A stretch of 64,000 nucleotides of DNA from Caulobacter soli (lineage in GTDB: Bacteria > Pseudomonadota > Alphaproteobacteria > Caulobacterales > Caulobacteraceae): contig NZ_CP049199.1 in NCBI RefSeq assembly GCF_011045195.1, forward strand, positions 3,951,501 to 4,015,500. Reading direction: 5' to 3'. Made by a program: the position numbers and the translations under genes. This document shows, piece by piece, positions 38,065 through 47,515 of this stretch. Within the stretch, counting starts at the first letter, position 1. Every line of letters begins with the position of its first letter. The notes below the pieces were generated by a model. It was not told where the DNA came from, ran no database searches, and saw nothing but the letters and a program-made list of their open reading frames with translations.

Positions 38065-39216
38065 TCAACCCTCGCGCGCGACGTCGTACTGCGACAGGTA
38101 GCGCTCGAAACGCGGCGCCAGCTTCTCGACCGACAGGCCGTACTGCTCCAGCGCATATTCATGCTTGCCGAACTTGCCCTGCGGGTTGTCGGCCAGCCAG
38201 GCCAGCATCGCCGCCTCGGCCTCGGCGGACAGCGTGTCGCCCAGGTCGGCGTAGAGCTTGCGGATAGCGGCCATCGGGTCGCGGGTGATGTCGGCGTAGT
38301 GGATGTCGACGATCCGGTCGTGACCCAGCTTTTCGCGGGTGTCCATGATCCGGTCCAGGTGCAGTTGGGCCTGATAGGGACAGTCCTCGCCCAGCCATTC
38401 GTAGTCGATCTGGCCGGTATAGCCTCGGTGAGCCATCGACAGGATGCTGCAGAACGAGCTGGTGGCGGTGAACGGGTCGCGGTGCGCCCACACCAGCTTG
38501 GCGTCGGGATAGGTCTTGAGCAGCGTCTCCAGCCACAGCGCGTGGCTGGGCATCTTCAGGTTCCAGTTGCCCGGCGCGTCGGCCTGCAGCAGCTGCAGGA
38601 AGCGCTTGTGGTACTGGTAGGTCGAGGTCATGTCGGTCGACAGCAGCCAGTCGCGATAGGCCGGCAGCTTGCCCCGGGACTCGTAGGCCAGGCCCTTGAA
38701 GTCGTGCATCATGAAGAACATGCACTCGTTCGGGTAGACGGCCGAGTTGCGGTAGTACTTGCCCATCTCCGGGCGGGCTTCCAGCATCGCCTTTTCCTGA
38801 GCCAGCTTGGCGATGGCGCGCGGATCGGTCTTCAGCGTCGCCGTGGTTGGGGGCGGCACCGGCTCCTCGATTTCCCAGGTCAGGGCCGAACGGCGGGCCG
38901 GGTCGCAGGCCAGCAGGTTGCTGAGCAGGGTCGTGCCGGTGCGCGGCATGCCGAACACGAACAGCGGGCGCTCGATCGGACGCTCCAGCAGCTCCGGACG
39001 CTTGGCCAGGTAGTCGGTGGTCGACAGGCGGTCGCTGAGCATCTGGACGAGGTTGCCGCTCATCCGCGCCAGCAGCGGCTCGGGGTGTTCGCTCTTGTTG
39101 TAGTCGGCGAGCAGGACGTCCAGCCCTTCGCGCCAGGAATTGGAATCGAACCGGTCCAGGCCGGTGTTCTTCATGGCCTGTTCGACAAGCGCGTCGGCGA
39201 CGAGCGGTGCGCTCAT
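38065..39216 (-). CDS. PAPS-dependent sulfotransferase (Sulfotransfer_3 family)
   Basis: A 383-residue cytosolic sulfotransferase. The 5'-phosphosulfate loop is at residues 86-98 (FVFGMPRTGTTLL) and the 3'-phosphate loop at 246-254 (RDPFTATSS). It should transfer sulfate from PAPS to a hydroxyl or phenol. The first gene of an operon with VOC, SDR, SnoaL, ADH and isomerase genes. PAPS synthesis and PAP hydrolysis genes lie 4-8 kb away behind the divergent promoter region, so a dedicated sulfate supply is likely. The acceptor is unknown; a hydroxylated catabolic intermediate is my inference. Confidence 0.9.
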   Translation of the reverse strand: MSAPLVADALVEQAMKNTGLDRFDSNSWREGLDVLLADYNKSEHPEPLLARMSGNLVQMLSDRLSTTDYLAKRPELLERPIERPLFVFGMPRTGTTLLSNLLACDPARRSALTWEIEEPVPPPTTATLKTDPRAIAKLAQEKAMLEARPEMGKYYRNSAVYPNECMFFMMHDFKGLAYESRGKLPAYRDWLLSTDMTSTYQYHKRFLQLLQADAPGNWNLKMPSHALWLETLLKTYPDAKLVWAHRDPFTATSSFCSILSMAHRGYTGQIDYEWLGEDCPYQAQLHLDRIMDTREKLGHDRIVDIHYADITRDPMAAIRKLYADLGDTLSAEAEAAMLAWLADNPQGKFGKHEYALEQYGLSVEKLAPRFERYLSQYDVAREG

Positions 39217-39288
39217 GACGTTTCTCTCCCGCATTTCTATTTTGCGGGCATCATGGGGGGCGAGACGGCGCGAGCAACGCGGATAGCT

Positions 39289-39313
39289 GTCGATATCGGG
39301 ACGATCTATCGAC
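39289..39313. promoter_or_regulatory. Candidate AraC-type operator, GTCGATA...TATCGAC
   Basis: An inverted pair GTCGATA (39289-39295) and TATCGAC (39307-39313), 11 bp apart, upstream of the sulfotransferase. The minus-strand arm reads GTCGATAGA, which is repeated on the plus strand at 40274-40282 on the other side of the AraC gene. Confidence 0.4.
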
Positions 39314-46359: not shown

Positions 46360-47111
46360 CCAGTCCCTTGAACGACACCGACCTGGCGGCCCACCTGGCC
46401 GAAACCGCCGGCAAGATCCTGCTGCAGGTGCGCGACAGCGGCCTGTTCGGCGCCAAGGCGCTGGGCAAGGCCGGCGACCAGACCGCCAACCAGTTCCTGG
46501 TCCACGCCCTGCGCGAGGCCCGGCCCGACGACGGCCTGCTGTCGGAGGAAATGAAGTGCGACGGCACGCGCCTCACCCAAAGTCGCGTCTGGATCATCGA
46601 CCCCGTCGACGGCACCCGCGAATACGGCGAGGCGCGCGCCGACTGGGCGGTGCATGTGGGCCTCGCCATCGACGGCGTGGCGACCATCGGCGCCGTCGCC
46701 CTGCCGGGGCTGGGCGTGACCCTGACCACGGGCCAGGCCTACGCCCTGCCCCCGGCCAACACGCCGCCGCGCATGCTGGTCAGCCGCACCCGGCCAGCCG
46801 CCGAGGCGGTGGCGGTGGCGGAAGCCGTCGGCGCCGAACTGCTGCCCATGGGCTCGGCCGGGGCCAAGGCCATGGCCGTGGTGCGCGGCGAGGCCGACAT
46901 CTACCTGCACACCGGCGGCCAGTACGAGTGGGACAGCTGCGCGCCCGTCGCCGTGGCCCGGGCCGCGGGGCTGCACGTCAGCCGCGTGGACGGCTCGCCG
47001 CTGGTCTACAACGCCGAGGACGTCTACCTGCCTGACCTGCTGATCTGCCGGCCCGAACTGGCCGAGCGGGTTCTGGCCCTGGTCAAGGCCCTGCCCAAGG
47101 TCGCCGCGTGA
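46356..47111 (+). CDS. cysQ: 3'(2'),5'-bisphosphate nucleotidase (inositol-monophosphatase family)
   Basis: A 251-residue metal-dependent phosphatase. Metal-ligand motifs: SEE (63-65), DPVDGTREY (82-90) and WDSCAPVAV (192-200). CysQ removes the 3'-phosphate of PAP, the inhibitory by-product of sulfotransferases, and can also act on PAPS. Its start overlaps the cysNC stop. Placement right after the PAPS-making enzyme, with a sulfotransferase nearby, suggests a complete sulfation cycle. Confidence 0.92.
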   Translation: MTSPLNDTDLAAHLAETAGKILLQVRDSGLFGAKALGKAGDQTANQFLVHALREARPDDGLLSEEMKCDGTRLTQSRVWIIDPVDGTREYGEARADWAVHVGLAIDGVATIGAVALPGLGVTLTTGQAYALPPANTPPRMLVSRTRPAAEAVAVAEAVGAELLPMGSAGAKAMAVVRGEADIYLHTGGQYEWDSCAPVAVARAAGLHVSRVDGSPLVYNAEDVYLPDLLICRPELAERVLALVKALPKVAA

Positions 47112-47515
47112 CCCGGGCCGCGCACGATCTGGCGCGCCGCTTCTTCGCGGCGCTGTCGGCCGGCGTATTTCCCGACGGCCTGCTGGCCGACGCGATCACC
47201 ACCTGGACCACCACCTCGGGCGCGGCGTCGGACAAGGCGCGCTACGAGGGCGGCGTGAAACTGCTGTCTTCGCTGTTCCCGGCGGGCCTGACCTATACGG
47301 TCGACAGCCTCACGGCCGAAGACGACCGCGTGGCGGCCGAGGTTCATGCCGAGGGGACGCTGGCCAGCGGCGAACTGTTCCAGAACCGCTACGTCTTCGT
47401 GCTGCGCATCCAGGACGGCCGCATCGCCGCGATCGCCGAACACTTCGATTCCGGCCCGGTGCGCGAGAAGATCGTGCCGCTGCTGATGGCGGCGATGGCG
47501 AAGGCCAAGGGGTAG
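47108..47515 (+). CDS. SnoaL-like/NTF2-fold protein
   Basis: A 135-residue NTF2-fold protein (AHDLARRFFAALSAGVFPDGLLADAITTWT; NRYVFVLRIQDGRIAAIAEHFD). The start overlaps the cysQ stop (GTGA), so it belongs to the sulfation operon. SnoaL-fold proteins may act as small cyclases, dehydratases or ketosteroid-isomerase-like enzymes; the exact role is unknown. It is the last gene of the operon, followed by a hairpin. Confidence 0.78.
   Translation: MTRAAHDLARRFFAALSAGVFPDGLLADAITTWTTTSGAASDKARYEGGVKLLSSLFPAGLTYTVDSLTAEDDRVAAEVHAEGTLASGELFQNRYVFVLRIQDGRIAAIAEHFDSGPVREKIVPLLMAAMAKAKG

Follow-up and report, generated by a model that had tools for sequence, protein, structure and literature searches.

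We examined a 64,000-nucleotide stretch of the Caulobacter soli genome (NZ_CP049199.1, positions 3,951,501 to 4,015,500; hereafter the window), in which a sulfotransferase gene, ST1, lies near sulfate-activation genes and between a left (8801..27758) and a right (47562..61836) catabolic block. ST1 (38065..39216) and an AraC-family regulator (39330..40199; Pfam HTH_18) occupy the minus strand. On the plus strand follow a short-chain dehydrogenase/reductase (SDR), SDRb (40368..41150), and a zinc-dependent alcohol dehydrogenase (ADH), ADHb (41166..42179), both assigned by domain scan, and MBL (42176..43444), which combines a metallo-beta-lactamase fold with an Alkyl_sulf_dimr domain (Pfam PF00753, PF14863). 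The sulfate-activation genes, cysDNCQ, come next. CysD, the ATP sulfurylase small subunit (43532..44434), and CysNC, comprising the GTPase subunit and adenosine 5'-phosphosulfate (APS) kinase (44434..46359), were found by profile scans, and a CysQ-like 3'-phosphoadenosine 5'-phosphate (PAP) phosphatase (46356..47111) by Pfam Inositol_P. A SnoaL-like gene (47108..47515; domain scan) is next in line; its homologs were not seen next to cysQ in any locus of the comparison. The 58 gene calls of the window, 46 of them Pfam-scanned, together with NCBIfam scans, bear out the gene content listed by an earlier model reading of the same letters (the original prediction): a sulfotransferase, an AraC gene, two dehydrogenases, the metallo-beta-lactamase-fold protein and cysD-cysNC-cysQ. 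Genes without a domain scan include the small left-block ones at 8801, 12569, 20735, 21417, 22614 and 27075.

ST1 belongs to the Sulfotransfer_3 family (Pfam PF13469, 9e-43). It carries both predicted loops, PRTGTT and HRDP...S, which we take to bind 3'-phosphoadenosine 5'-phosphosulfate (PAPS); the two motifs were invariant among aligned relatives, with T93 of the first loop scored as nearly invariant. Among solved structures, PDB 2z6v and 2zq5 came closest to the sulfotransferase profile, matching over nearly the full length; they are recorded as putative uncharacterised proteins. Both are presumably mycobacterial, and we know of no catabolic context for either. CysD scored 530 bits against a curated cut-off of 413, and CysNC scored 1051 bits with PRK05506 (cut-off 715) and 254 with apsK (cut-off 139). 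The APS kinase of CysNC is intact, as had been claimed, with a full domain (7.6e-68) and the P-loop GLSGSGKST. For the CysQ-like protein, placed in the cys row, the best NCBIfam model was CysQ (TIGR01331), at 105 bits under its cut-off of 229.

To assess the association between ST1 and its neighbours, named genomes were scanned with six aligned sulfotransferases as the query. From the 227 stretches confirmed, 80 loci were retained and split by sulfotransferase identity into 33 at ≥55% (ST1 orthologs, 55–86%) and 47 below; neighbouring genes were counted at identity cut-offs of 30–55%, set gene by gene. SDRb, ADHb and MBL occurred together at 27 of the 33 ST1 loci, compared with 2 of the 47 loci with remoter sulfotransferases. 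For cysD the corresponding counts were 20/33 and 0/47, and in four of the 13 ST1 loci lacking it the sequence extends <4 kb in the direction of its expected position. Homologs of SDRb and ADHb were each found at 29 ST1 loci, and those of the AraC regulator and of the VOC protein (Glyoxalase_4 in Pfam; 37594..38061, minus strand), the next gene past ST1, at 28 each. Since the layout recurs in many species, it is not a product of chance. The nearest named ST1, from Sphingomonas sp. OK281, is 86% identical. Within the family, ST1 was matched at ≥45% over its length in 3 of 249 genomes: the window's own (G000; 5.68 Mb, two contigs, completeness 100), G028 (72%) and G181 (49%), where G, C and L numbers denote genomes, contigs and loci. 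A contig of a metagenome-assembled genome (MAG) labelled 'Bifidobacterium breve' (L184) also carries a sulfotransferase of the ST1 family; the record name looks wrong.

A thiamine pyrophosphate (TPP) enzyme of the right block (55913-57646) tracks ST1 across genomes. At E≤1e-100 it was present in 25 of 26 ST1-ortholog genomes (72–92% identity; missing in G413) and in none of 26 others. The first set consisted of the 25 named genomes with SDRb/ADHb next to ST1, together with G028, and the comparison set of G233, G194, G091, G192, G181 and 21 genus genomes without a sulfotransferase match, 52 chosen genomes in all. G181 has no TPP enzyme, although its 49% sulfotransferase adjoins an SDR and an ADH. 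Linkage and co-occurrence in relatives thus uphold the premise that ST1 and the PAPS genes lie in one conserved degradation island. The TPP enzyme is unusually conserved: it is 87–92% identical in G028, G414, Sphingobium plasmids and a Haliea MAG, 72% on a Mycobacterium branderi plasmid and 68% on a Rhodococcus plasmid. In M. branderi the homolog adjoins aldehyde dehydrogenase (ALDH), Rieske and FAD-oxidoreductase genes.

In most of these relatives cysDNCQ is likewise part of the island. Among the 25 named ST1 genomes, 19 show cysD in the ST1 locus, the twentieth cysD-bearing locus being that of G028. In five Novosphingobium genomes with no cysD seen at the ST1 locus (G398, G399, G406, G408 and G412), cysDNCQ adjoins the left block, in G412 on the ST1 contig ~15 kb off. 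MBL and cysD are ~0.1 kb apart in L141, L142, L143, L144, L170 and L213, and 1.1–3.3 kb apart in the other 13 loci with both, a divergent gene lying between them in L151 and L157. Fifteen stretches downstream of cysQ were read, listing homologs at ≥45%. Left-block genes follow the ST1-linked cysDNCQ in seven, from Novosphingobium G396, G397, G403, G404 and G410 and the Sphingomonadales MAGs G407 and G413. TPP, Rieske and Baeyer–Villiger monooxygenase (BVMO) homologs follow cysQ in OK281 and G028, and the G392 stretch holds TPP, ALDH and SGL proteins. A contig-edge cysD fragment of G028 (C164) shares 77% DNA identity over 236 bases with the full cysD on C177, so the two are not one gene copy; strain mixing in the assembly or a second copy in the genome may account for them.

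The window's cys genes are not those ancestral to the genus. In G194 and G218 cysD-cysNC has a common neighbour set. L106 of C. soli is colinear with L073 of G194 at those neighbours (83–98% identity) and lacks cysD-cysNC; the flanks match G194 8057-8547 and 11718-11896, and 28 bp remain between them. The ancestral cysDNC site has been deleted almost cleanly. A tree was built from 43 concatenated CysD and CysNC rows, three of them under half filled, by a short search with SH-aLRT support only. It grouped the window copy with that of G233 and the ST1-linked copy of OK281 (98 and 99), and branches of 99–100 separated it from the genus copies L073, L079, L080 and L082. The window operon therefore belongs to a different cysDNC lineage. 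For this genome we infer an order of gains and losses by which the window cysDNCQ would have taken over from the deleted genes. Novosphingobium sp. MW5 has a second cysD-cysNC broken across several frames (G410:C4, L259 5716-8552) and an intact ST1-linked copy elsewhere; the broken one is apparently a core sulfur operon in decay.

Genome-wide profile searches of C. soli found a single CysD and a single APS kinase, that of the window, and a genome search found no Sat. This disposes of the suggestion that cysDNCQ might be a second set dedicated to PAPS supply. The original prediction had held that a sole cysD-cysNC copy controlled only by sulfur starvation would count against a sulfation role. 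The copy is indeed single, but that argument is weakened by an APS-reductase-like CysH, as cysteine synthesis may then not need PAPS. The genome has two genes with a PAPS_reduct domain, CysD and one CysH, the latter in a row with cysG-like and sulfite/nitrite-reductase-like genes at C1 ~3.347 Mb. The predicted lack of sulfate-reduction genes accordingly stands for the 46 Pfam-scanned window genes, among which none was seen, and not for the genome. CysH carries DGCCHIRKVLPL and CWPC, matching CCxxRKxxPL plus a CxxC motif, whose cysteines we take to be the mark of APS reductases. The assignment rests on this motif, since TIGR02055 (APS_reductase) gave 161 bits, under its cut-off of 235; the generic PRK02090 and TIGR00434 exceeded theirs. 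Rhizobial CysH prefers APS, according to one report (PMC6192434). If the C. soli enzyme is likewise of APS type, cysteine would need APS rather than PAPS, leaving sulfotransferases as the main beneficiaries of the kinase domain and the CysQ-like protein. PAPS may thus be needed in this genome mainly for sulfation.

The arrangement upstream of cysD was compared next. The original prediction placed cysDNCQ in one translationally coupled operon headed by the two dehydrogenases. In the cys row itself, cysD and cysNC overlap by one base, cysNC and cysQ by four, and cysQ and the SnoaL-like gene by four; ADHb and MBL also overlap by four. The single dehydrogenase-headed operon is unproven, since an 87 bp gap separates MBL from cysD and holds most of a conserved cysD leader (43422..43531, plus strand; palindrome GATAGCCGGGCTATC at 43447-43461) that is kept where MBL is not directly upstream. 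The leader was defined by comparison with L246 of G233, which is 86.9% identical from ~43422 to the end of cysQ and in which no MBL was found within the ~0.9 kb seen upstream of cysD. Palindromes similar to GATAGCCGGGCTATC precede cysD in L142, L144/L252 and L168, and the exact form is absent before cysD in L141, L170, L213 and L246. In the Novosphingobium loci listed, cysD is instead preceded by CTCCCATATGGGAG or a near variant of this palindrome, with or without an adjacent ST1. In L151 (4402-5563) and other Novosphingobium loci CTCCCATATGGGAG lies between cysD and a divergent, LuxR-like-looking gene, whose translated end in L151 and L157 reads by eye as a LuxR-type helix-turn-helix. On these comparisons, cysDNCQ is probably still transcribed from its own promoter. 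There was no sign of a riboswitch before cysD, as no Rfam family scored up to its gathering threshold in the window. An island-wide operator, GATAGYNNNRCTATC, was also rejected: it had one exact match in the window and, with two mismatches allowed, two matches against 2.73 expected by chance. Matches at chance level give no connection between cysD and the rest of the island. The exact palindrome was absent from the cysH region L064.

MBL had been described as alkylsulfatase-like. This holds for the fold and for the dimerisation domain (PF14863, 2.1e-15), and the protein matches type III alkylsulfatases of known structure, of the SdsA1/Pisa1 kind (SdsA1, 2cfu; also 4av7 and 2yhe). It does not hold for the canonical metal-site residues. 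All 29 sequences compared, from the window and 28 loci, have TQxHx in place of HxHxDH, with glutamine instead of the first metal-binding histidine; in three remote MBL sequences (L179, L183 and L256) the motif aspartate and histidine are changed too. A glutamate of SdsA1 and the histidine of its HNLYTLRG stretch are both missing from the window MBL. At 422 residues MBL is shorter than the SdsA1-type matches (633–668; 658–668 for the SdsA1/Pisa1 enzymes), and a Pfam scan gave no match to the C-terminal SCP2-like domain, which we take to be a trait of type III alkylsulfatases. Judged by these shared changes, MBL represents a conserved sub-family whose metal site has been altered, rather than a gene in decay, and an ordinary alkylsulfatase activity is unlikely.

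The remaining genes are largely of catabolic type. Past the VOC gene the ST1 row continues on the minus strand with SDRa (36794-37597), SnoaL_4 (36279-36782), ADHa (35241-36275), a TIM-barrel protein (34423-35244) and a glyoxalase-like protein (34028-34411); this part (34028..37597) is partially conserved in L141, L142, L144 and L185. The right block encodes CaiB, MaoC, an AMP ligase, IclR (plus strand), an SGL/NHL protein, an ALDH, the TPP enzyme, a Rieske oxygenase (57918-59297), a PtlE/PAMO-type BVMO (59344-61176) and SnoaL. For the BVMO the best NCBIfam model, PtlE, was under its cut-off, and among solved relatives with a named function phenylacetone monooxygenase is the closest. The left block holds a thiolase-like/ChsH2-like pair, a cytochrome P450, a fused acyl-CoA dehydrogenase, an enoyl-CoA hydratase, an ALDH, SDRs, an AMP ligase, MaoC and an ADH. 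Its 734-residue protein at 13671-15875 consists of two fused acyl-CoA dehydrogenase units.

Taken together, these observations favour, if only by a modest lead over doubt, a reading in which the window is most of an island degrading a hydroxylated, perhaps polycyclic isoprenoid-like substrate, with sulfation as one step and cysDNCQ doubling as the housekeeping set. CysD and CysNC would convert sulfate and ATP to APS and then PAPS, ST1 would transfer the sulfuryl group to a hydroxyl on an intermediate of the pathway, with PAP cleared by the CysQ-like protein. The SDR, ADH, MBL-fold and VOC proteins would act on the alcohol or the sulfate ester. As the cell's only sulfate-activation operon, cysDNCQ would also have to supply APS for cysteine. 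We infer that ST1 acts on an intermediate of the pathway, and likewise in what order the steps run, what class the substrate belongs to and how the sulfate group is used.

Several findings weigh against this assignment. The genomes bearing the layout are related, so their counts are not independent events, and any sulfotransferase match was found in only four genus genomes, C. soli included. Fifty-nine of 61 genus genomes keep cysD, and the inspected CysNC genes keep the kinase. PAPS has other possible users in C. soli, because the genome encodes five Sulfotransfer_3 proteins. G233, whose CysD is 98% identical, has cysDNCQ without a detected ST1 or TPP enzyme; the window-type cys lineage therefore does not need the island. 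G409 has ST1 with cysDNCQ elsewhere, and neither arrangement was seen in the stretch read. Past cysQ the sole window homolog seen in G394, G395, G401, G402 and G405 is a remote one, of the 12838 SDR; G414 showed one SDR, and G393 no window homolog. No cys gene is annotated in the 44 kb examined of the Sphingobium RAC03 island, for which the gene table is incomplete. Inertia could also explain the place of cysD, a gene required for cysteine and preceded by its own conserved leader. One of the other C. soli family members, ST2 (C1 ~2.045 Mb), is 63% identical to ST2 of Sphingomonas cavernae; the remaining three genes (C1 4186506-4187084, 2739850-2740431 and 4248144-4248734) lie in open frames of 650–1210 residues.

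A bolder version of the sulfation reading would make PAPS-dependent sulfation an obligatory, ATP-costly step of a widespread sphingomonad pathway, with the sulfate removed by a new class of MBL-fold enzyme and the island cys genes having displaced the housekeeping cysDNC. We regard this as doubtful.

Somewhat less probable is that cysDNCQ is simply the lineage's housekeeping sulfate-assimilation operon, beside which catabolic genes have docked, ST1 using ambient PAPS and the adjacency having no functional meaning. The single copy in C. soli fits this view, as do the single intact CysD in 21 of the 25 named ST1 genomes, the conserved leader of cysD, the same operon in G233, and the CTCCCATATGGGAG-type palindrome before Novosphingobium cysD irrespective of ST1. 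In detail, CysD gave a single match in 19 of those genomes, one plus a weak partial match in G408 and one plus the broken copy in G410; two intact copies occur in Sphingomonas sp. OK281 (G390), Sphingomonas sp. LaA6.9 (G391), S. cavernae (G392) and Novosphingobium chloroacetimidivorans (G412). Both copies have cysNC and cysQ beside them in G390, G392 and G412, and the G391 contigs end at cysD. Mere docking is harder to reconcile with cysDNCQ lying in the ST1 locus or by the left block in 24 of the 25 genomes (the exception being G409), with the second cysDNCQ of OK281, and with the second cys copies, nearly identical to the first, that G194 and S. cavernae gained at sulfotransferase loci. S. 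cavernae has a second sulfotransferase, ST2 (42% to ST1), directly after cysQ. G194 (L071 = G194:C1:1622001-1642000, 10227-19140) and G192 (L109/L069) have a second row type: cysQ-cysD-cysNC, an unknown 420-residue protein, P450, sulfotransferase and DUF1254/1214. In G194 the cys genes of this tightly packed row are a second set that hardly differs from the housekeeping cysD-cysNC, beside which no cysQ match lies; in G192 it holds the genome's only CysNC. The G091 contig (L070) ends before any cys gene, and the genome was left out of the linkage analysis as it gave no full-length CysD or CysNC match, probably through an assembly gap. Judging from these near-identical sequences, copying has put cys genes at, or away from, a sulfotransferase locus at least twice, and the second row type in relatives shows that the cys-sulfotransferase pairing arose more than once.

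Lower again we place a special form of the sulfation reading, in which sulfate is a leaving group: ST1 would activate an unreactive alcohol, and the MBL-fold or SnoaL-like protein would eliminate or displace the sulfate. Sulfate has this role in polyketide chain termination (CurM). The conserved, altered metal site of MBL is consistent with such chemistry but would fit some other reaction, or no activity at all, just as well. In RAC03 SDR, ADH, MBL and ST2 form one row of the same island, and the MBL gene shares one base with the sulfotransferase gene, also in keeping with this form. Much of the RAC03 island lies on an 893 kb plasmid, pBSY17_1 (L266, 14833-44001), with an IS110 transposase and cas9/cas2 nearby. 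Least credible is sulfation by ST1 of an envelope glycolipid, carotenoid or signal, for example in response to a toxic substrate: Sulfotransfer_3 acceptors are not readable from sequence and a TonB receptor lies nearby (28013-30412), but ST1 co-occurs with the TPP enzyme, ST1- or ST2-like genes lie by dehydrogenase, Rieske, BVMO, TPP or thiolase homologs in gammaproteobacterial L173, L177 and L211 and unclassified L145, and no glycosyltransferase or carotenoid family was seen among the 46 scanned window genes.

If sulfation is indeed a step of this pathway, ATP would be spent to tag an intermediate before its breakdown, and carbon breakdown and sulfur assimilation would share one gene set. The ST1-SDR-ADH-MBL layout at 27 of 33 named ST1 loci, several in described species, makes the proposal directly testable. 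Bacterial sulfotransferases are known from the making of signals, polysaccharides and natural products. The CoA ligases, MaoC, acyl-CoA dehydrogenases, thiolase-like/ChsH2-like pair, Rieske and SnoaL proteins of the window presumably resemble those of steroid and bile-salt degradation in Sphingomonadaceae. The terms 'sulfo', 'thiamine' and 'Baeyer' had no match in the accessible text of two bile-salt/steroid papers (PMC12175502, PMC12882949). The original prediction knew of no described pathway with such a layout, and the accessible literature yielded none, which is not proof of absence. The closest known kind is Nod factor sulfation by NodH with NodPQ, where a sulfotransferase is likewise served by CysD/CysN-type PAPS genes and CysH prefers APS (PMC6192434). 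That system differs in being biosynthetic, with NodPQ existing beside CysDN and a signal as its product, whereas the window cysDNCQ is the sole set in its genome, sits in a degradation island and appears to have taken over the housekeeping role.

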